From: a virus
Strand: one strand, 5' to 3'
Virus record (IMG/VR): IMGVR_UViG_3300023196_001923
Span: 1 to 40,610 of that record
Length of the DNA stretch: 40,610 nt
The translations under genes were made by a program, and so were the position numbers. A model generated the notes under the pieces. That model saw nothing but the letters and a program-made list of their open reading frames with translations, was not told the origin of the DNA and ran no database searches. Numbering within the stretch: position 1 is the first letter of the stretch; each line of letters opens with the position of its first letter. Below, one piece after another: positions 785 through 17,504 of the stretch.

Positions 785-1001
785 AGTAGACAGTTTAGAA
801 AAAAGAATGGCGGCGACTACAAATGTACTGCAGCACATGATGAATGAACTGTCTTATATTAAAGATTTATGCGTAGGAACGCTGGAAACAATTAAACAAA
901 TGCCTGATTATGAAGAAGCTATCAACAAGCTTAAGGAAAAAGTGGCTGCAGAACCTGGTGAGACAGAAGAAGCTGACGCCGATAGAAAGACTTTCGAGTA
1001 G
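762..1001 (+). CDS. Small coiled-coil-like hypothetical protein
   Basis: This 79-residue protein is not recognised. It is rich in heptad-like hydrophobic spacing (VDSLEKRM, VLQHMMNELSYIKDL) and ends in an acidic Glu/Asp tail, which suggests a short helical oligomer. The start at 762 lies inside the end of the oxygenase gene (23-base overlap); an alternative start is the internal Met at 810. It sits between the oxygenase and a small membrane protein in the nrd cluster, so co-expression is likely. No catalytic motif is visible. It could be a regulator or accessory partner of a neighbour, but nothing in the sequence shows this. Confidence 0.55.
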   Translation: MKTQKQSRVDSLEKRMAATTNVLQHMMNELSYIKDLCVGTLETIKQMPDYEEAINKLKEKVAAEPGETEEADADRKTFE

Positions 1002-1188
1002 ATTAGGATATATGGGCACGGCATTTATGATGTTATCCCCTCATATCTTACCAGATCAAACTGGAATGATTACATATATTATAGCGGGTGTGATATCAAT
1101 ACCTCAAGTATTTGTAGCAAAACAATGGAACTTAGTAGCGGTAAATTTAAACGTAGCAATAGCCTACACAATACTATATTTAACATAA
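958..1188 (+). CDS. Small two-helix membrane protein in the nrd cluster
   Basis: This reading frame encodes a short protein with two hydrophobic segments: one around MGTAFMMLSPHILP plus the following ITYIIAGVISI, and one at LVAVNLNVAIAYTILYL. Between them is a PQ dipeptide followed by QWNLV. The start is uncertain. ATG at 910 is possible but overlaps the previous gene by 92 bases. GTG at 958 (chosen) begins just before LTPIERLSSRLGY, which I remember as conserved in small phage membrane proteins. ATG at 1012 would leave a clean 10-base gap. The TAA stop at 1186-1188 overlaps the ATG of nrdA (TAATG), which points to translational coupling. The function is unknown. Confidence 0.5.
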   Translation: MRQKKLTPIERLSSRLGYMGTAFMMLSPHILPDQTGMITYIIAGVISIPQVFVAKQWNLVAVNLNVAIAYTILYLT

Positions 1189-2906
1189 TGTGGAATGAAA
1201 ATTGGAAAAAAGGAGAAGATTACCCTGCGTGGGGTAATAACGACGTCTACAAGAAGACTATATCCGGGGGATATTTATTCGACGGAGAAACACCTAGAGA
1301 AGCATACCATCGAGTCGCTAAAACGGTTGCTCGTAGATTATATAAGCCGGAAATGGCAGAAACGTTTTTTAATTATATTTGGAACGGCTGGCTTTGCCTC
1401 GCTAGCCCTGTACTTTCAAACACCGGTACTGATCGCGGTTTACCTATTAGCTGTTTTGGTATTGACGTCGCTGACAGCATACAAGACATAGGACAAAAGA
1501 ATTTAGAGATGATGCTACTCGCTAAGCACGGCGGTGGAGTTGGTATCGGAGTTAATATGATTAGACCCGCTGGCGCAACAATAACAGGTAATGGAACATC
1601 AGACGGGGTTGTCCCCTTTTGCAAAATATACGACTCAACAATTCTTGCAACTAATCAAGGATCAGTCAGAAGAGGAGCTGCTTCTGTCAATATTAACATT
1701 GAGCACGACGATTTCGAGGAGTGGTTGGAAATCAGAGAACCTAAAGGAGATGTTAACAGACAATCGCTTAACCTACATCAGTGCGCAGTTGTTGGTGATA
1801 AGTTTATGCGACGCCTTGAACAAGGAGATGCGAATGCTAGAACTAGATGGAGTAAACTACTTAGAAAGCGAAAAGCAACTGGAGAACCGTATATATTATT
1901 TAAAGGAAACGTTAACAAAGCAAATCCAAAAGCATATAAAGAAAACGGATTAAAAGTACATATGACAAACATATGTTCAGAAATTACATTGCATACAGAT
2001 GAAAATCACAGTTTTGTATGTTGCTTATCATCATTAAATTTAGCTAAATATGAAGAATGGAAAGATACTAACCTTATATACGACGCCACGTGGTTTCTTG
2101 ATGGCGTTATGGAGGAATTTATTCAAAGAGCCAAAGGACTTAGAGGTTTTGAAAATGCCGTTCGTTCAGCTACTAAAGGACGAGCGCTTGGGCTGGGTGT
2201 ACTCGGATGGCACACGTATCTCCAGGAAAAAGGTATTCCTTTTGAAGGGCTACTTGCTCAGTTTGAAACTAGGCGCATTTTTTCGCAAATTAAAATTGAA
2301 TCTGAAAGAGCAAGCAGGGTTCTTTCTGAAATCTATGGTGAACCTCTTTGGTGCGCTGGCACTGGCTATCGTAACACCCATCTTAGGGCTGTTGCTCCTA
2401 CTGTGTCTAATAGTAAGCTTAGTGGTAATGTTAGTCCTGGCATTGAGCCTTGGGCCGCTAATGTTTTCACGGAACAAAGCGCGAAGGGTACGTTCATTAG
2501 GAAGAACCCCACGCTTGTAAAGCTACTTAGAAAACATAAATTAAATACAAATGAAATATGGGATAAGATACTTGCTGATGGCGGTAGTGTACAAGACATT
2601 AAAGAGCTTGACGATATAACAATGGCGCACGATATACCAGCAAAAGAAGTATTTAAAACCTTTAAAGAAATAAACCAACTGGAACTAGTAAATCAAGCAG
2701 GCATACGCCAACAATATATAGATCAGTCGGTTAGTTTGAATCTTGCTTTCCCAAGCATCGCTACACCGAAATGGATTAACCAAGTCCATATGCAAGCATG
2801 GAAGAGTGGAATAAAAACTTTATATTACACAAGGACAGAGTCGGTGCTTCGCGGGGATATAGCTCAACAAGCTATGAATCCTGAGTGTACCGCTTGTGAT
2901 GGATAA
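1188..2906 (+). CDS. nrdA: Ribonucleoside-diphosphate reductase class I large subunit (compact)
   Basis: This enzyme reduces ribonucleotides to deoxyribonucleotides, using the radical generated by the NrdB partner. The ORF opens upstream at 1125, but ATG 1188 is preferred because it forms a TAATG overlap with the preceding gene and gives 572 residues beginning MWNENWKK. All hallmarks are visible: redox cysteine C89 in PISCFGI, the active-site Asn-Cys-Glu triad N261, C263, E265 in NICSEI, a second redox cysteine at 278/279 in FVCCLSS, the radical-transfer tyrosine pair Y546-Y547 in TLYYTRT, and the C-terminal shuttle cysteines C567 and C570 in ECTACDG. It is shorter than the roughly 750-residue bacterial enzymes and lacks an N-terminal ATP cone, as is common in phages, so allosteric activity control is probably absent. 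Confidence 0.93.
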   Translation: MWNENWKKGEDYPAWGNNDVYKKTISGGYLFDGETPREAYHRVAKTVARRLYKPEMAETFFNYIWNGWLCLASPVLSNTGTDRGLPISCFGIDVADSIQDIGQKNLEMMLLAKHGGGVGIGVNMIRPAGATITGNGTSDGVVPFCKIYDSTILATNQGSVRRGAASVNINIEHDDFEEWLEIREPKGDVNRQSLNLHQCAVVGDKFMRRLEQGDANARTRWSKLLRKRKATGEPYILFKGNVNKANPKAYKENGLKVHMTNICSEITLHTDENHSFVCCLSSLNLAKYEEWKDTNLIYDATWFLDGVMEEFIQRAKGLRGFENAVRSATKGRALGLGVLGWHTYLQEKGIPFEGLLAQFETRRIFSQIKIESERASRVLSEIYGEPLWCAGTGYRNTHLRAVAPTVSNSKLSGNVSPGIEPWAANVFTEQSAKGTFIRKNPTLVKLLRKHKLNTNEIWDKILADGGSVQDIKELDDITMAHDIPAKEVFKTFKEINQLELVNQAGIRQQYIDQSVSLNLAFPSIATPKWINQVHMQAWKSGIKTLYYTRTESVLRGDIAQQAMNPECTACDG

Positions 2907-2912
2907 TTAAAA

Positions 2913-2938
2913 AAGGGGAGGCCGTTAAGCTTCCCCTT
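2913..2938 (-). terminator. Rho-independent terminator between convergent operons
   Basis: A ten-pair stem (AAGGGGAGGC with GCTTCCCCTT, one G-U pair on the + strand) encloses the six-base loop CGTTAA. On the - strand the stem is followed by a run of six T and then AATT, which is the canonical terminator layout, so it should end the long - strand transcription unit after the endolysin gene. It also sits 7 bases past the nrdA stop, so it may act in both directions, although the + side lacks a good T-run. Confidence 0.75.
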
Positions 2939-2986
2939 CTTGGTTACAGGATTTTTGGGTATGGTACGCCCGTTTTTTTATTCCTG

Positions 2987-3346
2987 TCAATATGTCCACA
3001 TGACACAAGGGCTCTTAGCCTTGTCAATATCTACATGTATGAATGTTGCACTTACACCTATTCTATTAAAACCTAATTTAATTAAAATTTTAATAAGCTC
3101 GAATCTTTCTGAAGAAGTAGCACATGCAATATCTGCGGCTAAACCTTTTAAATGCGAAGACCCAGATGTTCCCCCAACTTTTTCATTATGAGCTTCTGTT
3201 CGGTAACCAGAGTTAATTACTATGGGTTTACCATAATTTTTACGAGCAACTTCCAGCATGCTTAGTAATTCCTCACTCATTAATTGGCCACTCCCTTGTA
3301 CGTCGGGGGAATCAAATTCTTCATAAGTAAAATACTTCATTCTCAT
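2987..3346 (-). CDS. Peptidase M15 family endolysin (D-Ala-D-Ala carboxypeptidase-like)
   Basis: This 119-residue zinc peptidase of the M15 (VanY/phage L-alanyl-D-glutamate or D-Ala-D-Ala) fold very probably cuts peptidoglycan cross-bridges at lysis. The visible motifs are INSGYRT, then SSHLKGLAAD with zinc ligands H65 and D72, and FIHVDID with ligand H104 and D106. The length is normal for single-domain phage M15_3 proteins. There is no signal peptide, so release should depend on the holin encoded at 33.7-34.1 kb. The start at 3346 forms an ATGA overlap with the stop of the preceding basic-protein gene. It is the last gene before the 2913-2938 terminator. Confidence 0.88.
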   Translation of the reverse strand: MRMKYFTYEEFDSPDVQGSGQLMSEELLSMLEVARKNYGKPIVINSGYRTEAHNEKVGGTSGSSHLKGLAADIACATSSERFELIKILIKLGFNRIGVSATFIHVDIDKAKSPCVMWTY

Positions 3347-3603
3347 TTCTTTTTCTTCCTTTTTATATTAGATGCTCTCTTACCCATTCCAACTCTTTTC
3401 TTTTCAGCAACAGCTTTTTTCTTTTCTGACGGGGACATCTCGCTCCAGGTTTTTACAGTCTTACTGTTTATCCTTTTGCTTGGTCTACACTTTTTTGTTT
3501 TTTTATTTTTAGTAGATCCACAAGGATTGCCTTTTTCATCGGTCCATTTTTCTTTAAACCAGCGTTTAAGATTAGCTCCTTTTTGAGTTTTACGAACAGC
3601 CAT
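3343..3603 (-). CDS. Small lysine-rich protein (DUF5872-like)
   Basis: This very basic 86-residue protein starts MAVRKTQKGANLKRWFKEKW and contains NPCGSTKNKKTKKCRPSKR, WSEMSPSEKKKAVAEKKR and a C-terminal run of lysines. The Trp-containing start and the two cysteines in the CG...KC segment match the DUF5872 type of phage and large-virus proteins as I remember it. ATG 3603 is chosen over the longer ORF start at 3636 because it forms a TAATG overlap with the 46-residue gene upstream and gives the conserved N-terminus. The charge suggests nucleic-acid binding, but no experiment defines the role. Its stop overlaps the endolysin start (ATGA). Confidence 0.72.
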   Translation of the reverse strand: MAVRKTQKGANLKRWFKEKWTDEKGNPCGSTKNKKTKKCRPSKRINSKTVKTWSEMSPSEKKKAVAEKKRVGMGKRASNIKRKKKK

Positions 3604-3743
3604 TACTTTTTCTTTTTGCCTTTTGCTTTTCTGCATTTTGCTATTGCACCGCTTGCGTAAGCCGATGGAAATACCTTGTACTGCTTCTTTACTTTATGAT
3701 AGCATGCGTCTTTTAGTTCGAATGGTGACTTTGATGATTCCAT
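3603..3743 (-). CDS. 46-residue basic protein with a CYHKVKKQYKVFPSAYASG motif
   Basis: This short gene begins at ATG 3743, one base past the stop of the 3158-residue gene, and its TAA overlaps the next ATG (TAATG). The protein contains CYHKVKKQYKVFPSAYASG and then AIAKCRKAKG with a lysine tail. The block Cys-Tyr, Lys-Val, Tyr-Lys-Val-Phe-Pro-Ser-Ala-Tyr-Ala-Ser-Gly, Cys recurs in many aquatic phage and giant-virus proteins, so it is very probably real despite its size. The two cysteines and the basic character would suit a nucleic-acid or membrane-lipid contact, but the function is not known. Confidence 0.72.
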   Translation of the reverse strand: MESSKSPFELKDACYHKVKKQYKVFPSAYASGAIAKCRKAKGKKKK

Positions 3744-3744
3744 A

Positions 3745-6700
3745 TTAATCTTTTTTAATGTTATATTTTTTACCCATAGCTTCGTAGAAACCTTTTAATT
3801 CTTTAGTTGGTGTTTGGAAAAACACTCTTCTGTCTTCGGGTTTAAGACTGTCAATTACCTGTTGTTTAAACTTTTCTTGTTTTTCTCTGTTTATTCTTCT
3901 TGTCTCCTTGGCTTTCACTTTTCCTTGTTCTTTCCTAACGCCTTTGGCTTCTGTTTTAATTAAATCAAACTCTTCGTTTTTAGCATTAACATCCCACGTT
4001 CTCCAGCCTAAACCTAACGCCATTCTTTGGAAGGCGGTATTCCTTTTATCAAAAGCCTCTGTAATAGCCTGTGTTTCCATTATCGCTCTATCAAGCGGCA
4101 CATTTAATGTGGCTGATGCAACATTACCAATAATACTATATGTTGGCGAAAGATTAAACTTACCGTCCATCGTAACGTCCCAAGGATGCTTAGCTATAAC
4201 ATCTTTGTCAAATTTATACGTTTGAATGCCAGAGTATATTTTTCTAAGCTTAGATCCTATTGGGGGCGCTATGTTTGCGGCCTCTATGATAGTATATGTA
4301 TGATCTGCTTTGTATCCTTTTTTATCTTGCTCTAAGAACTTTAATATAGTATTTTTTACAGTAGACACTACAGCTCCATATATACCAGTACCGCGCAATA
4401 TTGTATCGGTCATACCGTTTAACATACGTGTAAGCTTCTTGTCTTGTGTAGCTTCTCTTTCTTCTTCTGTTTCCTCTTCATCATCAAACCCAGGTATTAA
4501 AGCAAATGCTGCGTTTTGCAATGCTGAGAATATTATATTTTGCACGGCGCCATAATAAACAATCTTAGATATATTTGACTTAGCATCTCCACGGCCATTT
4601 ACAAGGTCCTGAGCGGCTTTTTTCATCAATCTAGTGTATTGCATCGGCGTGTTTTGGAAAGACAATATAAGACGCCCCGCAACGCTTCGCTGTTGTTGTG
4701 ATACCAATGCCGGATCCCCTGATTGCTGTGACTCGTCTGATATTTTGCTAAAGTCTAAAAACGCTTTTGCCTCAGCATCTTCTTGAGACATACCTTCTTT
4801 TAAATAAGTATTAACTCTGTTGCGATAAAATGTAGCGCCACCTGCTGCAATTGCAAAACTATCCGCAATTTGCGTTGGCGTAAATCCTATTTTTAATAAA
4901 TAAGAAACAGCAGCGCTAGCCTTGTCCTTTGCGTTTTTAGCGGCGTTAGCAATCTCTTGCTCTTGTACATCAGATTTTAAACCTCCCCTACGTTGTTTTA
5001 ATTTATCGGAATTAAACAGCATAGCAAAGTCTTTCCAGTATTGAGGTTGATTAGCAAACGCTAAACCTGCTTTTAAAGGATTATTGTCGCCCCAATTAAT
5101 AAAGTTAATTGAAGATATAGTTTGCAATAAGGCTGACCTTCTGTTAAAAAACATTATAGTACCAACAGAATTGTTAACCCAATTGTTCCACGCATTAGTA
5201 ATCTTGTTAGCGCCTGAAGTACGGTTTGTGCCGTTTTTCATTGCAAATAAAGAATCCTCAATACCCTCTCTTAGGTTTGTTCCATATACAGCTTCTATTT
5301 TATTTAAATTCTTTTCGCTAAATATAATTTCGGCGTTTTCAATAAACTCCGCTAGATATTCTTTTCTATTTACTTTTTCTGTTAAACTCTGCAAATCACT
5401 AAGCACAGTCTTAGCATCCCAAAATTCACCTGGCTCAGTCCATTTATCTTTCTTTGACACAGCTAATAATCCGTCTGCATAACCCGATAGGTCCGCGTCA
5501 TTCCTTACAAGTTTTACTAGTCTAGCTTGATCTCTTTTAGATATACCAGGTATTTCGTAACCAGCTTTGTCCCAAAGATAAACTCTAATAGCAGAATCAT
5601 ATGTATAATCCCCTTCCGGTACAAGTTTATTAATAATTCTTCTAACTGGTTTAAACATTTTATTTAAAGCCCTAGTGTCATTCTTAATTGTTTGACGAGC
5701 TCTTTCCATTGCTGCAACACCCTGAAAATAAGGATCCATTAAATTTTGCTCAAAGAAAGCTTGATCAGCTTCGCCTTGTTTTCCTTTGCCAGCAAATACG
5801 TATTGTGTTAAACCTCTAAAGTCTTCTGCGCTTGGCGGAATAAAGAATTTAAATCTACCTTTTGTTTTACCTCTTCTTCTGGCAACTGCTGCAGAAAATT
5901 CTTTAAAGTCTTCAACGCCCTTTTGGCGTTCAATCATTTTATTAAAGTCTACGTCTAAGCTAATACTGTGTTTAACTCTAGCTTGCTGAACTTTGCCTTT
6001 AACATCAAAAACATTAAGCACATCTTTGACGGCTTTAACGTTACCCATGTGATCGTCTACAAAGTAGAAGTCGTTGTATCCATCGGCAACCTTTCCAACC
6101 ATCCATGCCGCTTTAGCCGCTGGTGCTCCATTAGCTAATCCAGTTATATTTTCAAGTGGAATTTCTAAGCCTATACCTTTTAAAAATTTATATATAGCCG
6201 GAGCTGAGTCAGCTGGTCTTGCTGTTAATACAAATATATTTTTATTACCAAATTTTTCTATAGCTTTTTTAAGCCTTGGGGCTAATGGCCCCGGTGTTCC
6301 TTTAACAACTTTGCTAAATTCACTAAAATTAAATTCAGCGCCTTCATTAGCCAATGTTTCACCTTGTTTAGCAAACTCGGCTGGCGTTATTCTATAAGTC
6401 TTACCATCTTTAGTCACTATAACCTGACTTTTACTGAATGCCAGTGTGTCATCAAAATCATATACGCTAATGCCTTTAGGTGTAATTGAATACTTGCCCT
6501 TGCGTGCGTTAGCCATTGCTTTATCAACTGTTCTTTTTTCTTCAGTTTCCTGTGTAGCGTCTGCTTTAATTACAGGGTTTTTGCCCTTCTCGTTAAAGTA
6601 TTGTTCATACTGTTCTCCTACGGTTTCCGTGCCGTCGTAGCTAACCATAGCGTATGGCATGCGTCCTCTTGTAAATAAATTATAATATCTATTGTGCCAA

Positions 6701-9700
6701 GCCGTTTCACCCGGAACATAATTAGCGGTGGTTATAGCGCCGTATCCAGCCTTGTCTAACACCTTATCCATTTCTTTAACTGGAATAATAGTTACTCTGT
6801 AATCATTCCATAAAGCTTCCATGTTGTGTTCCGTGTTGCCGTTTACATAGTAATCGTACATATAAGCTAAAACAACTCTGGCTGGTATCGCATGCTCAAA
6901 CCTAAAGTCTGAAGGAGTATCTGATTTTATAACAGTAGACTTACCCCAAACCCTGGCTGATGCTCTTAACGCATTCCCCGTGCCGTTGTTCATGGTAGAG
7001 AGTAATGCCAGCGCTACATTAGGATCTAAATCTTGCTTTGCAAAGTTTTTAAAGAATGAAGTAACAAACTTCTGAGCGGCTTTGTAATTTACTTCATCAG
7101 GTTTATAGTTTTCCCTGAGCATGCCTTTTGACACGTTAGTTACAGGGCTATATTTTCTAGCAACCGATGTTCCGTCTGTAAAAAATATTTTTTTGTTTTC
7201 TATTTTATCAATCTTTTTGCCATCTAAATTTAATTTATTATACAAGCTTTGCAGTAAATCCTCCGCTCCACTAAATAAATCGGCTCCTGGTTTTGTTATG
7301 GGGCTTCCGTCTTTTCTAATACCGGGTACTAACTTTTGAGTTTTTAAATCAAACTTAAATAACCCTATTGAAGCTGATGAACTAAACGAACTATTTGCAA
7401 AAGCCACGATCATCTGTAGACCTTCGTCAATGCCGTATTCGTCGATTATCATTTGCATGCTTTCAATTGCGGCCGCCCTAGCAAGCATAATAGTATCTTT
7501 ATCTCTAAAAACTTCTGAAGCATTCATTGGCGCTCCAACTAATTTTTGTAAAGCTAAAGCCTCGTCTGATTGATTAGATATTTCATCAAGTATTTGTTTG
7601 AATACTGGAACGGGTACGCTTTCAGCTGCTTTATTAACAGGTTTAAGTCTGTTCGCGAACTGTTCAGCTACGCCATCTATTATCTTAGGATCAAAATCAA
7701 GCGCTCCATACGTTGTTAAAAATACTTTCCTAATATTACCCTTACTAAGATTTTTAAGGCTCATTACACGATCAAAAAACAAATCTTTATTTAAGTCAAA
7801 TTTAAATCTTTCGGTAGGATTCATTCTGCCAACGGAAAATTTACCTCTACCTGTTTGTTTTTCAATTTCAACAATCTCAGCTTCTTTGGCTAAACCATTA
7901 TCTCTTAATACCTCGGGCAATACATCGAACGCGGCTTCTTCGGCAATAACATCTGCAAACGAAGTTTTACGCGCATTCCGAACATTAGTCGCTTTGTCGT
8001 TAGCTTTTAAGTACTCAGTACCTTCTTTTTTAACTTGGCCATCATATTTTCTTTTCTTAAACTTACGATTGTTCGCGTACTTATTTGCAATACGTTTACC
8101 CCTTATAGCGCCGCGATCAATAGCGTCGTTGTAAGCCTCAACCTCGGCAACTGACATGTAATTTGGTGATCCGTCCTCATTCGTAATCTCCTCCATTAAA
8201 AATGAAAACCTATCTGAAATAGTAGACTTAGGCATTATGCTATACACATTCTGAAAGTTTCTATCTACAAACGAATCATAGTTAACTCTTTTTTCTTTAT
8301 TGCCAACTTTTTCAGTATTGTCAAAGTTAGCGCCGCGATCCATAATACTTTTGAATAAGTTACCCAATTTATCACGCATTGCGTTAGCAAGCTCGGTTCT
8401 AAATTTTTTACTACCGATAGGCGCAGTAAACTTGGTTGTAGCATACGCTACTTTAACATTTTCTTTTACTTTCTTTTGAACTTGATCAGATATTGACACT
8501 GGGTTTCCTTCTTTATCAAGAACAATAACCTCATCGGTTATTTGTGGAAATTCTTTTTTGACTTCTTTAGCTTCCCGCTCTTTTCTTTTTAAAGTATCGT
8601 CAGCTTTTTCTTTGCCCACAAGTTCTCTTCTTCCTGGTTCTGAAGGAGCGGCTTCTACAGTAATTTCGCCAAAGCCTTTTGTTTTATTAATTACACCTTG
8701 AAGCCTATTGTCTATTTGGCCATATATATAACTACTAAGTTTTGTTCCACCCTCTGGGTTGTACGATTTTATTAAAAAGGGTATTCCGTCATCACCTTTT
8801 TCAATACCAGTAGCTGTTCTATTTATAACCTCATCTTTGAACTCATCGTATCTAGGGACTTGATCTCTGGATTTCATTCTGTATGCTACATATGAAGCAT
8901 ACTGCTCGCCCACCATAAAACCTATAACAAGCTTAGTATTTTCAGGAACAGCATCCCATTGCTCTTTTGTAAAATTAGGCTTGCCGTCTTCATTTATTCT
9001 TAAATCTAACCCATAGGATTCAGCTCCTGTATTAAATGCTTCATTACCTTTTTGAAACATTCTATTTTTGTCATCAGTATTAAAGTTGCTTGGTGCACTA
9101 AATGATGATTTACCTTTTAGCGAAGACTTTTTAGGTCCTTTTTTAACTTTCTTTTGTATACGTCTACCAATCTTACCTTCTCTAAAATCAGCATTACGGT
9201 TTAGCATGTAATTTAAAGCGCCTTCAGGTGTGGTAGTATTAATGCCATTAAAAAAACTTTCTTTAGATCTTTTGGCTTCTTGATTAAGTTCAGCATCAAA
9301 AGCATAAAAAGTTTCTTGAGCAACCTTCGTGTATTCGTCTTTATATGCAGCGCTTGTATCTTTCCATTCCTTACCAACATCTTCAGTAAGATCGCTTCTG
9401 TTTGCTAATATGCTTTTAACTTGCTCATCAACGCCAGCTAAATCAGGTTGTGATAGTCTAGCGTGCAGATTATCTGCATATTGTTTTTGTTTTTCAGGAG
9501 TGTCAAAAACACGATCATCAATAACGTGAGCTACCTCATGCACTACAGCTGTCGCCGCAAGAATATTCCCTTTTTTAATTTCAGCTTCAGCGCGTTCTTT
9601 ATTAAAAGTTAAATATTTGCCATCATATACATATCCGTTGCTATCTGGGTTTTCTAATGCTTCGTATATTTTATTTTTTTGATCCTCGGTTAAATCTGTG

Positions 9701-12700
9701 TCTTCCAGTTCTTTTTGCGCCTCTTTTTTATTAGAAGCCTGTATTATTTTTAAACCAGCATCATTTACTATTTTAGAAGACACCGTGCCTCTTGTATTTA
9801 AAGTAATAGCTTTTGCTGTATAAAACTGTGCATTCACCCCTTCTGCCGCATAGGCTTTTTCTTTTGCTGTTTTAGACAAAGGCTTGTTGTTCACGTCTAC
9901 TAAGCTTTCAACTTTTTTGACTATTTTAGGATTTGCTTTCGCTAGCTTAACGTAGCTTAGCCTTTGCTCATTTCTAATTTCATTAATAATAAAAGCAAGC
10001 TTGTCCTTTCTATTTAAAGAACGATATTCATTTGCCTTATTAGTATCGGTTGTTTCAAGCTTTTGCTTTATTCTTTTCCCGGATGGGCCTAGCGAGTTTT
10101 CAACGCGATCGTAATTAACATCTTTTTTAAGCTGATCTTGCTGCTTCTTAATAGTAGCTCTTCTAATGTCAAAATTTTCAGCCTGTTGGTTTTTACCTTC
10201 TTTCTTTAGTTTGGCTTTATAGTTATTTACTTTTTCTTCAGCAATTGTTGGAGTGTCTTCTGGTCTTACGCCAGCTTCAGACATTAACTCTTTTTCTAGT
10301 CTACCAAGACCAAGCAGTTTCTTTTGATTATCACCACCTAATGCTATTGCGTCAACCTCTAAGCCCGTAACAGCAAAGCCTTGTTCTTTCATTTTAGTAG
10401 CCAATTGCGCAATAAGTATATCTCGCGAGCTTGCGTCTGTGGATTCTTGTATACTTATACTTAAGTCTTGTATATCCCGGGTTAAACCATTAATGTCTTT
10501 TTGAAACTCTATGGTAGCTGCATTGTTCATTAGTGCAGAGTATGCAACACCCGGTGTAGACATGGTGCCCGATGTAATCAAAGCAGACACAGCGGTATCG
10601 TCCCATTGGCTAAAGTCCATATCTCTACCTAGTATAATGCCCTCGCTTAGTGCTGTGTCGCCAAAGTAAATAAGCTCTTCTTCAAGTATCTCACCCCCTA
10701 GTCTTTTTCCAAGCTCAAGGCCTGCCATGCCAAGCTTTTTTAAATTACTTTTATATAAAAAATTAGATATATTTATCCCGCTTTTTGAAAAGTCTTTAAT
10801 TGCTTTTAACGAGTTTGGAGCAGTACCTATAAATGATGTTACCGTACCTTCAATAAAACCAGTTGCCCACGCAGCATTCACAATTTGCTGATCCGTAAGA
10901 TCACCCATTGCTATTGTTTTATTAAGATCAAGTTCGTTTGATGTGTAAGTATTGTAATCTATTAAACCAGATTCATAGGCAACACGATTTAATTCTTTTT
11001 GATTCTTAGCGTCTTCTCCAAGTTTTTGAGCCATTACTAAGTCTCTATACTTTTGAGCCCCTGAGGATACCCCAAATTGAGTACCAACAGCTAGTTGAGT
11101 AGCTATTTTACCCATATTTAGCGCTGTACCAACTCCAGACGTTCCTATAGCTAATATAATATTAGGCGCTTGTTGCCCCAGCGTTCTTAAACCAAATAAA
11201 CCAGCCCTGCCTTGAGCCAATGCTTGATCATAGGTAAGCATGGTTTCAAATTGCTGATTTTTTCTCTGCAGTCTTTCCTGTTCTTTGACAGCATATTCAG
11301 ATCCGCCTAATACGGTTGGCACCGCAAGCGCTAATCCAGCAAAAGCATCATTAAGATCTTTAGCCAGTAATGCTCCTGTGTCATATTCTTTCATGCTAAG
11401 GTCAAATAGCTCCGCGGGTGTTATTTCTCTGTCCTGTCTTTTTTGTTGGAATTGAGCAATATCTTGCACATAATTTTGAGCACTTTGATTGTAATCAAAC
11501 TGGGCCGCCATAGTAGAATTTTGAAGCTTGTACCATTGGCCCATTGCTAAATTCACTTCTTGCTGCTCTTTCTCAGATAATCCTTTTTTGGTTTGATTTG
11601 CTGTAAATACGTATTGGCCATCAATATTGTCTACTTTAAATTCAACGTTTGGTGTGGATTTTGATATTCTTTCGGCTTCCCCAACAATAGTTTTAGCAAT
11701 ATGATCGCGAGTTTTAATTAACTCTTCTTTATATTCTTTTTTGCCTTCTTTATATAAATCAACATCTTCCTTGTCAAAACGGTAAGCGAGCTTAAGCAAA
11801 TTGGCTTTGCCTGATTCTTTCATCATAGCCTCCTGTATGGTTACCATGCGTGAGTCTAGCTCTGATGTCTTATAGTTTTCGTAACCTTGTTGGAATACAG
11901 ATTTTAATAACTCGGGCGTAAGCTTAGCTTTAATTTCTTCTGGTAAATTACTTTCCGGTGACAGTAGGTCAGTTTTGTATTTAATATATTCCTGGGGAGA
12001 CATTGTATATGACGTAGCCGTAGCCCCGTATGTAGTGTAGTTTACTTTACGCTTGTCTTTTCTGTTGTCTATATAGTTTTTAACAATATTAGCCTCATCT
12101 TCCGTAAACCCTAAACCTAATTTTGGATCACTTAATGTAAAAGCTAGCCTTTCTGAAAACTTACCGGAATCTAAGTAGCCTCTAGTCATATCTAGTTCGT
12201 CTACTTTTTTACCTTCCGCTTCTTTTCTTTTTACAACTTTACTCTCAAAAGCTTCATAAGCTTTAAAAGAATTGTTTTTAAGAATATCTTCGTCTTCGGG
12301 AGTTAAATTGTTATTGAAAAAATCAGCTATGCCATTTGCATTTAACCCTGATTTAATAGTTACGCCATCTTTTTGTACTTCAAAAAATGTTATAGGAATT
12401 GATGGAGACCTCGGGTCTACTGATTTTGATTGCGTAGTGGTTGTTTTAATTTTATATCCAGTACCATTTAATCCATAATTTAATTGATCAATATCGGCAG
12501 CCTCTGCTTCTTGATCAAACCTGTCTATAAAAGTATCTACAACTTGGGATCCATATTCTTCAGCTGTAAGCGTTTCAAATGAATTTTTTACTTGCTTAAT
12601 TTGGTTAGCCGTATTTAATCTTTCTTCATATGAAGATGGCTTTAAGTTTATATATTGGTCCTTTCCCGTTCTTGGGTCTTTGTATGCAACAGCGTTTCTA

Positions 12701-13221
12701 ACGTCTGTTTGTGTTATTTGAATAGGGTATTCTTTTTCTAAAATAGCCTCAACAGTCTCTTCTGTTTCCATTACTAAGCTAAATGGATCTTCTAGACTTG
12801 GCCCTTTTTCAGGTGAAAAAACAGCTTCTTTTTCTTGTTGTATTTCACGTTTTAATGTTGATATTTTTCTACCAACTGCTCGACCGCTACTTCCTGGTTT
12901 ACTTCTTGCGGATTTCTGCGCCAATAAAAGCTCTTCCAATCTGGATTCCATATCGATAAGACTTTCTGACTTCGGCACTTTCACTTCTACAGGCTCCTCC
13001 GTTTCCGCAGTTGCAATCTCGGACACTTTTTCCGGTGTTGTTACAGACACTACACCTGCATCCGTTGTTGCAGCGTCCGTTAGCTTTTCCACTTGCTCGT
13101 CTTCATTTACGAGGGTATAACCTGATAAAGAGGCATATTCAGGAACTGACATTCCATTCATTTTTGCCCACGAATTCATCTGTTCTACCGTAGCGGTATC
13201 TCCATTTGCATTTTTATACAT
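3745..13221 (-). CDS. Giant 3158-residue polyvalent virion protein (zincin, sigma-like segment, HAD phosphatase)
   Basis: This is the largest gene here, nearly a quarter of the window, and it lies where short-tailed phages encode their largest ejected internal protein. In order: an acidic linker-like N-terminus (1-170); charged helical regions; hydrophobic stretches near 628-645 and 685-700; a zinc-peptidase motif HEVAH (1228-1232) followed by the sort of helical segment that carries a third ligand; a sigma-region-2-like stretch YNPEGGTKLSSYIYGQIDNR from 1487; an EHAIPARVVLAYMYDYY block before the HAD domain; a HAD-type phosphatase with D2255/D2257 (DFDDTL), VLTARP, a candidate lysine in PAAKAAW and D2389/D2390 (FVDDH); and a C-terminal region with a hydrophobic segment around 2888-2912. 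This mosaic matches the polyvalent-protein theme of phage proteins delivered with DNA. No frameshift is seen. Delivery is inferred from position and domain mix. Confidence 0.85.
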   Translation of the reverse strand: MYKNANGDTATVEQMNSWAKMNGMSVPEYASLSGYTLVNEDEQVEKLTDAATTDAGVVSVTTPEKVSEIATAETEEPVEVKVPKSESLIDMESRLEELLLAQKSARSKPGSSGRAVGRKISTLKREIQQEKEAVFSPEKGPSLEDPFSLVMETEETVEAILEKEYPIQITQTDVRNAVAYKDPRTGKDQYINLKPSSYEERLNTANQIKQVKNSFETLTAEEYGSQVVDTFIDRFDQEAEAADIDQLNYGLNGTGYKIKTTTTQSKSVDPRSPSIPITFFEVQKDGVTIKSGLNANGIADFFNNNLTPEDEDILKNNSFKAYEAFESKVVKRKEAEGKKVDELDMTRGYLDSGKFSERLAFTLSDPKLGLGFTEDEANIVKNYIDNRKDKRKVNYTTYGATATSYTMSPQEYIKYKTDLLSPESNLPEEIKAKLTPELLKSVFQQGYENYKTSELDSRMVTIQEAMMKESGKANLLKLAYRFDKEDVDLYKEGKKEYKEELIKTRDHIAKTIVGEAERISKSTPNVEFKVDNIDGQYVFTANQTKKGLSEKEQQEVNLAMGQWYKLQNSTMAAQFDYNQSAQNYVQDIAQFQQKRQDREITPAELFDLSMKEYDTGALLAKDLNDAFAGLALAVPTVLGGSEYAVKEQERLQRKNQQFETMLTYDQALAQGRAGLFGLRTLGQQAPNIILAIGTSGVGTALNMGKIATQLAVGTQFGVSSGAQKYRDLVMAQKLGEDAKNQKELNRVAYESGLIDYNTYTSNELDLNKTIAMGDLTDQQIVNAAWATGFIEGTVTSFIGTAPNSLKAIKDFSKSGINISNFLYKSNLKKLGMAGLELGKRLGGEILEEELIYFGDTALSEGIILGRDMDFSQWDDTAVSALITSGTMSTPGVAYSALMNNAATIEFQKDINGLTRDIQDLSISIQESTDASSRDILIAQLATKMKEQGFAVTGLEVDAIALGGDNQKKLLGLGRLEKELMSEAGVRPEDTPTIAEEKVNNYKAKLKKEGKNQQAENFDIRRATIKKQQDQLKKDVNYDRVENSLGPSGKRIKQKLETTDTNKANEYRSLNRKDKLAFIINEIRNEQRLSYVKLAKANPKIVKKVESLVDVNNKPLSKTAKEKAYAAEGVNAQFYTAKAITLNTRGTVSSKIVNDAGLKIIQASNKKEAQKELEDTDLTEDQKNKIYEALENPDSNGYVYDGKYLTFNKERAEAEIKKGNILAATAVVHEVAHVIDDRVFDTPEKQKQYADNLHARLSQPDLAGVDEQVKSILANRSDLTEDVGKEWKDTSAAYKDEYTKVAQETFYAFDAELNQEAKRSKESFFNGINTTTPEGALNYMLNRNADFREGKIGRRIQKKVKKGPKKSSLKGKSSFSAPSNFNTDDKNRMFQKGNEAFNTGAESYGLDLRINEDGKPNFTKEQWDAVPENTKLVIGFMVGEQYASYVAYRMKSRDQVPRYDEFKDEVINRTATGIEKGDDGIPFLIKSYNPEGGTKLSSYIYGQIDNRLQGVINKTKGFGEITVEAAPSEPGRRELVGKEKADDTLKRKEREAKEVKKEFPQITDEVIVLDKEGNPVSISDQVQKKVKENVKVAYATTKFTAPIGSKKFRTELANAMRDKLGNLFKSIMDRGANFDNTEKVGNKEKRVNYDSFVDRNFQNVYSIMPKSTISDRFSFLMEEITNEDGSPNYMSVAEVEAYNDAIDRGAIRGKRIANKYANNRKFKKRKYDGQVKKEGTEYLKANDKATNVRNARKTSFADVIAEEAAFDVLPEVLRDNGLAKEAEIVEIEKQTGRGKFSVGRMNPTERFKFDLNKDLFFDRVMSLKNLSKGNIRKVFLTTYGALDFDPKIIDGVAEQFANRLKPVNKAAESVPVPVFKQILDEISNQSDEALALQKLVGAPMNASEVFRDKDTIMLARAAAIESMQMIIDEYGIDEGLQMIVAFANSSFSSSASIGLFKFDLKTQKLVPGIRKDGSPITKPGADLFSGAEDLLQSLYNKLNLDGKKIDKIENKKIFFTDGTSVARKYSPVTNVSKGMLRENYKPDEVNYKAAQKFVTSFFKNFAKQDLDPNVALALLSTMNNGTGNALRASARVWGKSTVIKSDTPSDFRFEHAIPARVVLAYMYDYYVNGNTEHNMEALWNDYRVTIIPVKEMDKVLDKAGYGAITTANYVPGETAWHNRYYNLFTRGRMPYAMVSYDGTETVGEQYEQYFNEKGKNPVIKADATQETEEKRTVDKAMANARKGKYSITPKGISVYDFDDTLAFSKSQVIVTKDGKTYRITPAEFAKQGETLANEGAEFNFSEFSKVVKGTPGPLAPRLKKAIEKFGNKNIFVLTARPADSAPAIYKFLKGIGLEIPLENITGLANGAPAAKAAWMVGKVADGYNDFYFVDDHMGNVKAVKDVLNVFDVKGKVQQARVKHSISLDVDFNKMIERQKGVEDFKEFSAAVARRRGKTKGRFKFFIPPSAEDFRGLTQYVFAGKGKQGEADQAFFEQNLMDPYFQGVAAMERARQTIKNDTRALNKMFKPVRRIINKLVPEGDYTYDSAIRVYLWDKAGYEIPGISKRDQARLVKLVRNDADLSGYADGLLAVSKKDKWTEPGEFWDAKTVLSDLQSLTEKVNRKEYLAEFIENAEIIFSEKNLNKIEAVYGTNLREGIEDSLFAMKNGTNRTSGANKITNAWNNWVNNSVGTIMFFNRRSALLQTISSINFINWGDNNPLKAGLAFANQPQYWKDFAMLFNSDKLKQRRGGLKSDVQEQEIANAAKNAKDKASAAVSYLLKIGFTPTQIADSFAIAAGGATFYRNRVNTYLKEGMSQEDAEAKAFLDFSKISDESQQSGDPALVSQQQRSVAGRLILSFQNTPMQYTRLMKKAAQDLVNGRGDAKSNISKIVYYGAVQNIIFSALQNAAFALIPGFDDEEETEEEREATQDKKLTRMLNGMTDTILRGTGIYGAVVSTVKNTILKFLEQDKKGYKADHTYTIIEAANIAPPIGSKLRKIYSGIQTYKFDKDVIAKHPWDVTMDGKFNLSPTYSIIGNVASATLNVPLDRAIMETQAITEAFDKRNTAFQRMALGLGWRTWDVNAKNEEFDLIKTEAKGVRKEQGKVKAKETRRINREKQEKFKQQVIDSLKPEDRRVFFQTPTKELKGFYEAMGKKYNIKKD

Positions 13222-13234
13222 ATTAAATTATATT

Positions 13235-14767
13235 TTAAAGATCTTTTGTTTCTCCACCCATAAAAGTCCTAAGCCTTGTTAAGTTAAGGACATCTTCGCC
13301 TTTTTTATTTTTCTTATATAAAGGAATGCTAAACGCGGGATTTGGCATTGTTACGCCGCTTTTTGTTTGCAGCAGTTGATACTCTTGGACACCGTCCACT
13401 TCAACAAGTTTAAAATTCGCACCTTTTCCATCAAAACGTCCAGATATAATAGGGGCCTGTGCCTTTATACCAGCATCAACTTTGTACATAAAGCCTCCGC
13501 CTTCTTTGCTGGCTTTTGCACTGCTTTCAATTCTGTCAACTTTTGGCCCAAAATTTTGTATTGCTTGTTCAGCAAACCATCTTTCAGCAAATTCTTTTTG
13601 GGTGAGCTTTAGCTCATTACCCATGGGATCCTTATATGTTTGAGTTTTATTTCCAGCGGGATCAAATATGAACTCACCCGTAACGCTGTCTACATATCCT
13701 TTCACTTGATATGTTCTTTTTGTTTCGTCGTTTGGGTTCCATACTACATCCTGCCCTGATATACCCTTGCTATCAGCACCGATTGTATCGTTCCATAAGT
13801 CTTCCATTTCTTGCAAATACTTAGGATCATCTGTTAAGTGAGAAAAAGACAATTGCCCTACATTTTGTATAGCCCTATTTTTAGCTTGCTCCGCTGTTCT
13901 GCCTTCGGCAGGTTTCCATTTTACACTGGTAATAACAGATTCACCACTGTCATTAGTTACTCTTTTTACATCATAATAAGTAAGCAGAGGCTTTGACGCA
14001 TCACCAAGTATACCAGCAACGGCATTTTTAGATTCATCAGTTATATCTACTATAGTTCTAAAATAAGCATCAGGGTTTGTGCCGTTATCAGTAACCCGCA
14101 TGTATTCGTCTATATTAAAAAGACCTGTAACTTCGTCGCCCTCACCCAATCTATATAAATACATTGAGCCATCTTTTGCGCCAATTTGAACATTACCGCC
14201 CTCAACGAGGTCTAATAATATTTGCTGCTGCTCAGTTGGAACGCCGCCTGCAATTGCGCCCGCAGTCCCAAACTTTTTTCCCAAACCTTCTTTTAAATAT
14301 CCCGCAGCAGCCATTATTGCTGGTGCTTGTTGTTTGTACTTGCCTACAGTTTGTTGAATTTCTATCAGGGCTCTCTGCGCTACAGCCATGTCTATCCCAC
14401 TATTAGGATCATCCATAGCGGTTCTAACTTCCACAAAATCATCCATTAACCCGTAAAGCATTTTACGCACACCAACCTCAAATCCTGCATTAGGTATTTG
14501 ATCAATCAATGCAACTTTATCGTATTGCAAAACCCGTAAATCTTCTCTATTTTTTAAAAGCTGTAATTGCTGCTCTTTTTCGTGCCTAATGTTTGCTTGG
14601 CGTGTTGCTATCCCTGCTGCAACGCTTGTTCCAATAGAAGCAATGCTTTTGCCTATATTGCTCCAATTTGCACCACCCGTAGCGCCTGAGCCCGAAGATC
14701 CTCCTCTTCCAGATATTTTTGCTGCCTTTATTGTAGGCGGGTTAAAGTTTATTGTGTTCGTAGCCAT
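13235..14767 (-). CDS. Putative internal/ejection protein, 510 residues
   Basis: The N-terminus is NINFNPPTIKAAKISG-like (residues 4-19: NTINFNPPTIKAAKIS), followed by a Gly/Ser-rich stretch, an Ala-rich hydrophobic-leaning segment (NIGKSIASIGTSVAAGIATR) and a long charged, largely helical body without recognisable enzyme motifs. It sits between a 236-residue Ala-rich protein and the 3158-residue protein. That triplet recalls the internal core proteins of T7-type podoviruses (gp14, gp15, gp16) in order and in rising size, although no sequence similarity is claimed. The N-terminal motif recurs in the 185-residue protein at 39355-39912. The start is ATG 14767; the leader is A-rich with no Shine-Dalgarno sequence. 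Virion location is inferred. Confidence 0.6.
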   Translation of the reverse strand: MATNTINFNPPTIKAAKISGRGGSSGSGATGGANWSNIGKSIASIGTSVAAGIATRQANIRHEKEQQLQLLKNREDLRVLQYDKVALIDQIPNAGFEVGVRKMLYGLMDDFVEVRTAMDDPNSGIDMAVAQRALIEIQQTVGKYKQQAPAIMAAAGYLKEGLGKKFGTAGAIAGGVPTEQQQILLDLVEGGNVQIGAKDGSMYLYRLGEGDEVTGLFNIDEYMRVTDNGTNPDAYFRTIVDITDESKNAVAGILGDASKPLLTYYDVKRVTNDSGESVITSVKWKPAEGRTAEQAKNRAIQNVGQLSFSHLTDDPKYLQEMEDLWNDTIGADSKGISGQDVVWNPNDETKRTYQVKGYVDSVTGEFIFDPAGNKTQTYKDPMGNELKLTQKEFAERWFAEQAIQNFGPKVDRIESSAKASKEGGGFMYKVDAGIKAQAPIISGRFDGKGANFKLVEVDGVQEYQLLQTKSGVTMPNPAFSIPLYKKNKKGEDVLNLTRLRTFMGGETKDL

Positions 14768-14794: not shown

Positions 14795-15505
14795 TTACCC
14801 CGAGAGCCCAGCCCCGAGTATTTGTCCACCCACTCCTGCAATTGCACCAAACGCGCTTGCTTCGCCCGCTTGGGCAGCTGATTGTCTGGCTTGAGCACTT
14901 GCTTGTACACCAGAAAGTCTAGCTAATTTATTTTCGTCTCTTTGCTCCCGGCTTTCAAACATATAAGCCTGGCCTTGCGCTTCTGCGGATTGTAACCTGA
15001 GCTCGTCTTGTAATGCGATATTTTGCATTCTTTGCGCTTCTGCTGTTTGGCGTTTTTGTAAATCTTGCTCGCCTTGTGCTTTAAGTTTTTCATTAGCCGC
15101 TTCCTGGCCTTCAATGCTGGCAGATATTCCTTGTTTTGATTTCAAGGCTGCCTGAGCTAATGCAGTAGCACCTCCAGCCCCTGCCCCTGTGGCTAGCATA
15201 GTGTCTAGAGTGTTAGCAAGAGCAATGTCCGCTTCTTCTGCTTGCATTTCAGCAGCTTGAGTGGCAACACTTAAATTAGCGTATGGGTTACTCATGCTTC
15301 CAGATAAATCTTCAGCAAGATCAGTTACGCTTTCCATACCAGCGTATGGGTTTATAATTGTTGCCCTGTTAGATTCAATTGCGTTTATTTTTCTTTGCGC
15401 CGCCGCCGCTTGTCTGCCTGCCGCTTTCGCTGCGCTCCGAGCCTTACCTCCTGCCATTAAGCTACCTCCTATAGATAGGGCTGCTCCTGCTGCTATTGCT
15501 GCCAT
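14795..15505 (-). CDS. Putative internal virion protein, Ala-rich helical, 236 residues
   Basis: An N-terminal Ala/Gly-rich amphipathic-looking segment (AAIAAGAALSIGGSLMAGG) precedes two short repeats NPYAGMES (52-59) and NPYANLSV (73-80). Then comes a GAGAGGATALAQAAL stretch and a long Gln/Ala/Glu-rich coiled region, with a second Ala/Gly-rich C-terminus (GAIAGVGGQILGAGLSG). NPYAxLxx repeats followed by a Gly-Ala-rich helix are familiar from aquatic podovirus internal proteins. Hydrophobic Ala/Gly ends would suit insertion into a membrane during DNA ejection. It directly follows the acetyltransferase gene (2-base gap) and precedes the 510-residue protein. The functional assignment is by position and composition only. 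Confidence 0.6.
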   Translation of the reverse strand: MAAIAAGAALSIGGSLMAGGKARSAAKAAGRQAAAAQRKINAIESNRATIINPYAGMESVTDLAEDLSGSMSNPYANLSVATQAAEMQAEEADIALANTLDTMLATGAGAGGATALAQAALKSKQGISASIEGQEAANEKLKAQGEQDLQKRQTAEAQRMQNIALQDELRLQSAEAQGQAYMFESREQRDENKLARLSGVQASAQARQSAAQAGEASAFGAIAGVGGQILGAGLSG

Positions 15506-15507
15506 AG

Positions 15508-15918
15508 TTATATATTTTTAATTAATTCATGAGACGCGCTTTCATCAACGGTCCAACCTAATTTTTTATGTGTATTTATTAAATGCTTATTGCGCCCTAT
15601 ACTGAACATATGCACGGCACCAACATCTTTACATGCAGCCTCCGCTGTGGTTATAAGAAGTTCTAAGGCCTCCTTACGGTCTTTATCTCTATACTCTGGG
15701 TCTGATACTATCCATTCTAATAAAACGGCATCGGAATTAGTAAAATAAAGAAAACCCGCGCATATAGGCTTGTCGTCTTTATAAACCATTAGTCCCCCGG
15801 TTCCGTTATCCGGCAAAAAGCTTTTAGGTGGATTGACCCACTCGGGCCAAGCTTCCCACCACTTGCATAGCGTATCCCAATCGCTTTCTTTTAGGTTACG
15901 TACATTTAATTTATTCAT
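15508..15918 (-). CDS. GNAT-family N-acetyltransferase-like protein
   Basis: This 136-residue protein has the GNAT layout. The N-terminal strand and helix LNVRNLKESDWDTLCKWW are followed by GGLMVYKDDKPICAGFLY, then LLEWIVSDPEYRDKDR as beta4 with the acetyl-CoA-binding region, then EALELLITTAEAACKDVG and the C-terminal HKKLGWTVDESASHELIK, where GNATs often have a Lys-Leu-Gly-(Phe/Trp) turn. The canonical Q/RxxGxG/A loop is replaced by YRDKDRKE, so catalysis may be altered. The gene lies inside the tail/ejection gene cluster, where similar proteins sit in other aquatic phages. It might modify a virion or host protein; the substrate is unknown. The leader is ATTAAATTAAATT directly before ATG. 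Confidence 0.7.
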   Translation of the reverse strand: MNKLNVRNLKESDWDTLCKWWEAWPEWVNPPKSFLPDNGTGGLMVYKDDKPICAGFLYFTNSDAVLLEWIVSDPEYRDKDRKEALELLITTAEAACKDVGAVHMFSIGRNKHLINTHKKLGWTVDESASHELIKNI

Positions 15919-15926
15919 AATTTAAT

Positions 15927-17504
15927 TTAATATGATGATTCTACGTATTCTGTTGACACGGCAAATAGTTCGTTAAATTGCCCTGGGTTTGTTCCGCCAA
16001 CTGTCATTTTAACAGTAGCAAAAAACCCTTTAATACCACTCATTGATTTACCAAATACAATTTCACCGTTGTTTTGAGGTGTTGCGTTTGTAATACTAGC
16101 AAAGTACTTATCTTCTTTTCTTAAGAAATTATTTGAAAACAAATTGTTTTCTAAACCCTGTTGTGTCGTAGCAAGCGTGTAACCACCTATAGCTTTACCT
16201 ATATCTTCATTAGTAGTAAGCTCAGTAACAATCCAGTTTTTAGATCCTTCGTAGTTTATAGTGTTAAAGTTTTTAACTACAGAAACATTAGGATTAAATA
16301 TAAACGTTACATTTGCAGGTGTTGACAAATTATAAAACGTGCCTCTGTTATTGCTGTCTGAATAGTGTTTGTATATTTTACCATCTTTAATAGAGTAAAA
16401 ATCGTTTTTTAAACTACCAACAAAATCAGGAGCGTATGTATAGAAGCTTGTCCAACCTTTAACGCTTTCGTCAAATGATAAAGTTTTATAATCGTTTATT
16501 TCTTCTGCAGGAGACAAACCTCTGAATTGACCTTCCTGCAATACGCTTACTTCGTATTTTTTAGTATGCAAATCATAACCGCCAATTACAGTACCATTGC
16601 CTTGTAGGGCTGATAATTCATCGCGCCAAAAGTCTGTCATTCCATACCTTGATATTTCTTCAATACCATCCATAGATAGTCTAAGCACAGCGTTTCGCCT
16701 TTTGTCTGTAAAGTATTTTCTATATCCATATATAGCAAAGCTTTCTGGATTTTTTGATATACCATACTTTCCACCGTAAGGAACTATTTGTCCAATTACA
16801 AGATTAAGCGTGCTAACAGCCGACCCTTGGCCTTCGGCAGAATATATAGCGTCTTTATCTATAAGGGCTCTACTAACTTTGTCTTCTTGAAATATAATAA
16901 GGTTAGTATCTTCAGCATATAATTTTTGCACGCTACCATTAGCAGGGTCTAAAGATTTAGTAATATCTTCAGCTACAGAAAATTGATTTGTATTATTAAC
17001 ACCTGTTCTAGAATTGTATATACCTGAGTATATTAAAGAACCAGCCCTTACTTCTCCTTGCTTAACATTATCTACAGTATAAGCTTTAACACCAAAATCT
17101 ACAGATGTATTGTTATAACCACCACGTATTCTTGCTTCTTCTATAAACCAATCATCATTATTGCTAGATCCATATGCTTTTGGTATGTTAGTAAAATCTT
17201 CTATTGGCCCAAATATTATTGTAACATTTCCTGATAAAACAGGCGACGGGATTGGTGATACTTTAAATTCAGTATCACTTATTCTTTCTGTAATAAAACC
17301 TGTGTATGTGTCGCTGCTATAAAGTATAGTTACACTTTGCCCGACATTCATTTCTGTATCAGGCAAGCTAGAAGTTATTGTTATTGTATCACCGTTTTGC
17401 GTAAAGGTTCCGGCAATTTGAGTACCGGGCACAACAGCTGTGATGCTAGCTATCTTCTTTAACCAGAAAGAGTTATAATATTTTACTTCTATAGTAGCTG
17501 CCAT
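15927..17504 (-). CDS. Tail structural protein, beta-rich, 525 residues
   Basis: The protein begins EVKYYNSFWLKK, continues with a beta-rich insert (about residues 20-105), then WFIEEARIRGGYNN, SLIYSGIYNSRTG, KLYAEDTNLIIFQEDKVS, ALIDKDAIYSAEGQG, YGISKNPESFAIYGYRKYF, RNAVLRLSMDGIEEISRYGM, and YEGSKNWIVTELTT near the end. From memory this block order is characteristic of a tail (stabilisation or muzzle-type) protein of crAss-like and other aquatic podoviruses. Repeated blade-like segments suggest a beta-propeller that forms part of the short tail. It follows the 1490-residue tail protein by 33 bases, and the two are probably partners. Structural role is likely; the exact position in the tail is uncertain. 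Confidence 0.75.
   Translation of the reverse strand: MAATIEVKYYNSFWLKKIASITAVVPGTQIAGTFTQNGDTITITSSLPDTEMNVGQSVTILYSSDTYTGFITERISDTEFKVSPIPSPVLSGNVTIIFGPIEDFTNIPKAYGSSNNDDWFIEEARIRGGYNNTSVDFGVKAYTVDNVKQGEVRAGSLIYSGIYNSRTGVNNTNQFSVAEDITKSLDPANGSVQKLYAEDTNLIIFQEDKVSRALIDKDAIYSAEGQGSAVSTLNLVIGQIVPYGGKYGISKNPESFAIYGYRKYFTDKRRNAVLRLSMDGIEEISRYGMTDFWRDELSALQGNGTVIGGYDLHTKKYEVSVLQEGQFRGLSPAEEINDYKTLSFDESVKGWTSFYTYAPDFVGSLKNDFYSIKDGKIYKHYSDSNNRGTFYNLSTPANVTFIFNPNVSVVKNFNTINYEGSKNWIVTELTTNEDIGKAIGGYTLATTQQGLENNLFSNNFLRKEDKYFASITNATPQNNGEIVFGKSMSGIKGFFATVKMTVGGTNPGQFNELFAVSTEYVESSY

Follow-up and report, generated by a model that had tools for sequence, protein, structure and literature searches.

The giant gene and its phage

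The window analyzed here is a linear IMG/VR record of 40,610 bases, and frame analysis revealed that a single reading frame of 3,158 residues runs without interruption along its minus strand (3745..13221); the plus strand across the same interval is full of stops. The initial annotation had described one uninterrupted frame of this length, leaving its strand unstated, and that description proved accurate for the minus strand. The terminase, portal, and capsid proteins of the window match phage families, and the terminase resembles its counterparts in Flavobacterium, Cellulophaga, Tenacibaculum, and Maribacter phages. The source is a flavobacterial phage, and its tail is of the crassvirus type.

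The structural operon is arranged in the order terminase, portal, capsid, tail, small protein, two midsize proteins, and giant, an order common to the window, MW202828, phi38:1, and elemo and found also, with insertions, in phi19:3. Three of these four syntenic records (phi38:1, phi19:3, and elemo) list the last, large gene as structural. The genes at the end of the operon are as follows.

15927..17504, minus strand: 525-residue tail protein with a crassvirus muzzle C-terminal domain (Pfam crAss_MUZ_C, 4e-10, above the cut-off)
14795..15505, minus strand: 236-residue Ala/Gly-rich protein, a candidate internal or cargo protein by its position
13235..14767, minus strand: 510-residue candidate internal or cargo protein directly upstream of the giant, its slot being the same in MW202828, phi38:1, and elemo
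3745..13221, minus strand: gene of the 3,158-residue giant protein, the last of the structural operon, with full-length homology in L001 and L002 (90 to 91%)

Pfam gave no match for the 510-residue or the 236-residue protein. The phage that carries this muzzle domain (15927 to 17504) is flavobacterial and has not been assigned to the crassviruses. Within the tail module, positions 15508 to 15918 encode a 136-residue protein with no Pfam match, the MW202828 counterpart of which is annotated as an N-terminal acetyltransferase subunit. Elsewhere in the window (34620 to 35354) lies a DUF4846 protein that bears a Bacteroidota-type signal peptide.

Comparison with better-known phages placed the giant in a recognizable slot. 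In crAss001, mass spectrometry of virions detected the proteins gp45 to gp47, gp49, and gp50 (PMC10172136), and the genes run muzzle, cargo 1, cargo 2, and then the 262-kDa gp47, which thus resembles the window giant in its position after the muzzle and two smaller cargo genes, in its very large size, and in carrying an HExxH motif; however, gp47 has no significant similarity to any module of the giant, and no sigma-like element was seen in it. No sign of common ancestry with gp47 was found, neither profile nor BLAST searches giving a match. The proteins gp101 of phi38:1 (Pervagoviridae), gp129 of phi19:3 (Pachyviridae), and gp21 of elemo (Elemovirus) are likewise the products of the last gene of the structural operon, are annotated as structural, and share the module at residues 649 to 1192; in contrast to the giant, gp101 (1,691 residues) and gp129 (1,871 residues) have no HExxH motif, and by BLAST the C-terminal module is absent from all three. 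Synteny with records of Cellulophaga phages, Flavobacterium phages, and crassviruses supports the earlier proposal that the gene stands where podoviruses have their largest internal protein. In MW202828.1 (L027), the same slot (741 to 12320) holds a giant of 3,859 residues that has two HExxH motifs and is annotated as a "reticulocyte binding/rhoptry protein"; it has no BLAST similarity to the window giant, and the two terminases are 63% identical.

Modules and enzyme domains of the giant

A search of viral contigs recovered 26 that carry relatives of the giant, of about 2,285 to 3,409 residues, a few of which end at contig edges; because these relatives show the zincin, sigma-like, and phosphatase segments, the three can be regarded as real domains. 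The relatives drawn from genome collections are contigs of metagenome-assembled genomes, mostly of Bacteroidota. Residues from about 2230 to 3130 are conserved in nearly all relatives and the N-terminal parts vary, and comparison of the proteins shows that the parts preceding the phosphatase domain have, to judge from their sequences, recombined freely. When both halves of the giant were used in tblastn searches against isolated phages, no match was obtained, and the terminase and synteny therefore served as the route to the isolates. Scans of the giant as a single sequence against Pfam and PHROGs likewise yielded nothing reliable. The following modules were delineated, all on the minus strand.

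13087..13221, minus strand: N-terminal module, residues 1 to 45 (iterative HMM over all ORFs of the loci, E values down to 1e-18)
9646..11277, minus strand: module at residues 649 to 1192 (iterative HMM), common to phi38:1 gp101, phi19:3 gp129, and elemo gp21
9292..9774, minus strand: zincin metallopeptidase domain, residues 1150 to 1310 (invariant ligands, weak Pfam matches, AF2 model)
9526..9540, minus strand: HEVAH active-site motif, residues 1228 to 1232
9334..9336, minus strand: E1296, predicted third zinc ligand, invariant in 68 rows
8677..8991, minus strand: putative sigma-70 region-2-like domain, residues 1411 to 1515 (profile comparisons), with the turn YNPEGGTK at residues 1487 to 1494
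7882..8454, minus strand: conserved domain following the sigma-like domain, residues 1590 to 1780 (HMM, in eight giants)
5902..6486, minus strand: HAD-superfamily phosphatase domain, residues 2246 to 2440 (invariant motifs, Pfam, Foldseek)
3817..5901, minus strand: conserved all-helical C-terminal module, residues 2441 to 3135 (low-confidence model), with a hydrophobic stretch near residue 2891

Strong matches to the N-terminal module of about 45 residues were confined to the N termini of giants and did not occur on other proteins of the loci; besides the window, the loci concerned are L001 to L005, L009, L013, L017, L024, L026, L050, L056, L072, L117, and L130. It is possible that this module is a tag for virion targeting or packaging. 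The module at residues 649 to 1192 is present in 24 of 32 giants; the iterative profile that links it to the isolates was run on 32 proteins, and its E values are generous because this set is small. Hydropathy peaks at residues 627 and 688, with a hydrophobic segment near the latter. Against the PDB, the whole C-terminal profile (A8) and the whole zincin-plus-sigma profile (A7) returned nothing useful, and narrower profiles were therefore required; Foldseek against a viral library was uninformative.

The zincin assignment is founded on its ligands. An alignment of 68 homologues showed H1228, E1229, H1232, and E1296 to be invariant, that is, an HExxH motif with a downstream Glu ligand; only rows with an upstream HExxH were taken (4 of 80 had none), so that E1296 alone is an unselected result. 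The motif is not a chance occurrence, since 0.006 are expected per shuffled giant protein and 29 of the 32 giants compared carry one. Among the Pfam families matched by single members, zincins lead, with weak matches (M78, ATLF, DUF3267, and SprT); this agrees with the polyvalent MPTase class, which has been tied to the same superfamily (Iyer et al. 2017, PMC5512222). The zincin-only profile (A10) found no relatives among PDB sequences. We regard the zincin fold as very likely, and the domain is likely to be active.

The phosphatase domain displays all four HAD motifs within residues 2255 to 2390: D2255/D2257 (DFDDT), T2333 (LTARP), K2370, and D2389-D2390. Motifs I (DxD), II (T), III (K), and IV (DD) are invariant in 19 sequences and are kept in nearly all relatives, the domain as a whole being absent from L025 and L019. 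Of 19 members, 17 matched Pfam DUF2608 (best, 2.2e-5) and 4 matched Pfam HAD, and Foldseek with a 907-residue query returned a probability of 1.00, at E values of 0.03 to 0.06, to class C acid phosphatases and Ceg4, the matches including acid phosphatase e(P4); the HAD-only profile (A9) found no relatives among PDB sequences. The HAD fold is all but certain, and we predict with considerable confidence that the domain is active. A zeta-toxin/AAA_33-type P-loop kinase stands in its place in the L025 giant (about residues 2240 to 2400) and is inserted within it in the L022 giant (about 2117 to 2280); from these swaps and insertions, we infer nucleotide or nucleic-acid chemistry. Other insertions occupy the same HAD loop in the L010 giant (about 2205 to 2340), where the insertion looks ADP-ribosyltransferase-like by eye and has no Pfam match, and in the L004 giant (about 2280 to 2330).

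The initial annotation had called a zincin from HEVAH and a phosphatase from a full set of HAD motifs, and both calls stand on firm ground: HEVAH lies at residues 1228 to 1232 with its ligands invariant, and the HAD call agrees with the conserved motifs, Pfam, and Foldseek. Structure prediction, which it had suggested for all three segments, bore out the phosphatase through the Foldseek result above. For the zincin and sigma-like segments the outcome was mixed: the AF2 model was confident at the zincin (pLDDT mostly >75), but Foldseek gave no significant match for the zincin-plus-sigma model (best E value, 2.4). Its hits ranked 1, 2, and 5 are, as we read the entries, sigma chains.

The segment resembling sigma-70 region 2

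The third segment had first been noted as sigma-like from YNPEGG...YIYGQIDNR, which is present as YNPEGGTKLSSYIYGQIDNR at residues 1487 to 1506. The element lies 215 to 310 residues past HExxH in nearly all relatives, and about 100 giant phage proteins conserve it in a position following the zincin; in one scan, 108 viral stretches encoded it. Helices were placed by AF2 at residues 305 to 318, 320 to 328, 336 to 353, 358 to 363, and 373 to 391 of the modeled segment. With sigma-70 factors (SigI, SigK, and SigB; group 1) it shares a helix with GxxGI/L, a Y-x-P-x-x-G turn, and an LxxYI helix; unlike them, it is embedded in a giant chain, Pfam scans of the full-length protein and of its segments revealed neither sigma region 3 nor region 4, and the Trp pair of region 2.3 that serves promoter melting is absent, the aligned positions being G1501 and Q1502. 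In view of these two absences, we term the domain sigma-region-2-like and do not consider it a complete sigma factor. In the L019 giant, an R4-like helix-turn-helix was noticed by eye.

Evidence for homology comes from the element family. Against the PDB, 14 of the 17 sequences listed for profile A5 (51 members) were sigma factors of different families (best E value, 0.0014), as were 6 of 7 for profile A3; subfamily A6 alone gave a weak result, with 2 sigma factors among 7 matches. A receiver operating characteristic (ROC) test set 60 Bacteroidota sigma ORFs against 281 other frames from the same loci. Profiles A3 and A5 both reached an AUC of 1.0 for the group-1 sigmas of Bacteroidota, and the 25 highest-ranking sequences were all sigma factors in the region-2 register; controls for group 1 (reversed profiles and the HAD, C-terminal, and zincin profiles) reached 0.43 to 0.76. 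The window clade alone had an AUC of 0.62 for group 1 and did not single out sigma factors. The curated NCBIfam SigI model matched 18 of the 51 single members (best, 2.9e-4), the SigK and SigB models matched too, and the SigE and RpoH models were also matched by single members, without use of the element alignment. In hhalign comparisons the window clade joined the element family (probability 93%, P of 3e-7), and the element family without the window clade joined group-1 sigma (P of 3.6e-4); hhalign probabilities to sigma were low, up to 37%. The window copy is thus a divergent branch that is linked to sigma factors through intermediates, and Pfam scans of this copy recognized no sigma domain.

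These comparisons make it likely that the element family is a remote homologue of sigma-70 region 2 and render the same descent probable, with somewhat less assurance, for the window's own copy. The original sigma-like reading therefore holds at the level of the family; taken by itself, the window copy went unrecognized. It is doubtful that this copy binds core RNA polymerase, and the effect on transcription first suggested for it is conjectural. Within the open-access library that was searched, such a sigma-region-2-like module is apparently undescribed.

Ten contigs of relatives with a length of at least 57 kb were searched (L200 to L209), and every one encodes a free-standing phage sigma factor of about 250 residues; none was seen on shorter incomplete contigs, the window included, and phi38:1, phi19:3, elemo, and MW202828 had no Pfam sigma-2 match. 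Since the near-complete related contigs already have a sigma factor of their own, the giant need not be one, and the clade probably uses the host polymerase with its own sigma; the embedded domain is probably an additional element. The free-standing sigma was also considered as the source of the embedded domain, but the link was undetectable (hhalign P of 0.03 to 0.55).

A probable modular cargo protein and the alternatives

The best explanation of the whole, and one that we hold with moderate confidence, is that the giant serves this flavobacterial phage as a modular ("polyvalent") cargo protein of the virion. That it is virion cargo is very probable; its presence in the particle and its ejection are suggested by the position of its gene and the annotation of its relatives. 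The giant would be packaged and would exit via the tail, either together with the DNA or ahead of it, the terminal helical modules serving packaging and passage. The zincin may then process the giant chain or cut host proteins, the HAD domain would hydrolyze a phosphoester (of a nucleotide, a nucleic-acid end, or a phosphoprotein), and the sigma-2-like domain could dock on host core RNA polymerase, so that transcription of the phage is favored over that of the host.

Polyvalent proteins are distinguished by at least two unrelated functional domains on one polypeptide, here the zincin, sigma-2-like, and HAD domains, and by domain exchange, seen here in a constant C-terminal module, variable N-terminal parts, and a kinase that replaces or interrupts the HAD domain. 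As in the proteins surveyed by Iyer et al. (PMC5512222), many unrelated domains share a large phage chain, a zincin forms the hub, modules are exchanged, and early delivery is presumed; the zincin and HAD domains are of known kinds. In contrast to that survey, the text of which does not contain the word "sigma," the window giant has a sigma-region-2-like domain after the zincin and an HAD domain before the C-terminal module. The N4 virion RNA polymerase (gp50) is also a giant virion protein that has a zincin and is delivered with the DNA (PMC5512222), a delivery that for the window giant we infer; unlike gp50, the giant has no polymerase domain that Pfam finds.

The alternative that we take most seriously, somewhat short of an even chance, is that the sigma-like domain is akin to region 2 and has no part in transcription, its helices being structural and serving the packing or unfolding of the giant. 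The lack of a detectable region 4, the partial retention of the residues for core contact and promoter melting, and the divergence of the window clade all agree with such a role; however, the element is strongly conserved in about 100 otherwise variable giants, and its place after the zincin is constant. A chance profile similarity to sigma factors is improbable: Foldseek was without a significant match and the hhalign probabilities to sigma were low, but the controlled ROC test, the PDB enrichment across several distinct sigma families, and the alignment-independent matches of single members to the SigI, SigK, SigB, SigE, and RpoH models argue against coincidence.

Two further possibilities concern the giant as a whole. 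It could be a permanent part of the ejection channel or head core, similar to T7 gp16, with enzymes that act in assembly or on the cell envelope and not in the cytoplasm. The gene position, like that of crAss001 gp47 and of T7 gp16, and the helical modules with hydrophobic stretches point this way; nevertheless, HAD phosphatases and the zeta-toxin/AAA_33-type kinases of L022 and L025 have cytoplasmic substrates in known families, and we consider this option unlikely. Slightly less doubtful is the idea that the zincin mainly cuts the giant itself, so that the zincin, sigma-like, and HAD parts become separate proteins after packaging or delivery. Self-processing is the proposed role of polyvalent zincins, and P1 DdrB is cleaved before packaging; however, the N4 virion polymerase, which also has a zincin, is packaged unprocessed (PMC5512222), and no cleavage site was identified in the giant.

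Within the favored reading as a polyvalent cargo protein, a bolder conjecture, to which we give little credence at present, is that a large clade of Bacteroidota phages delivers a sigma-region-2 mimic in a giant virion protein, such that host core RNA polymerase would be bound on arrival and the host sigma displaced or redirected before any phage gene is expressed, with the free-standing sigma taking over later. A phage that brings no RNA polymerase in its virion must gain control of the host RNA polymerase at once; an active sigma-like part could give this phage access to that enzyme before any of its genes is read. Delivery of such a domain in the particle would add a further route to the virion polymerases of the N4 and crass types and to modification of the T4 Alt type. 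With 108 viral stretches encoding it, the element looks widespread, and these results provide a testable function for the largest protein of marine flavobacterial phages.
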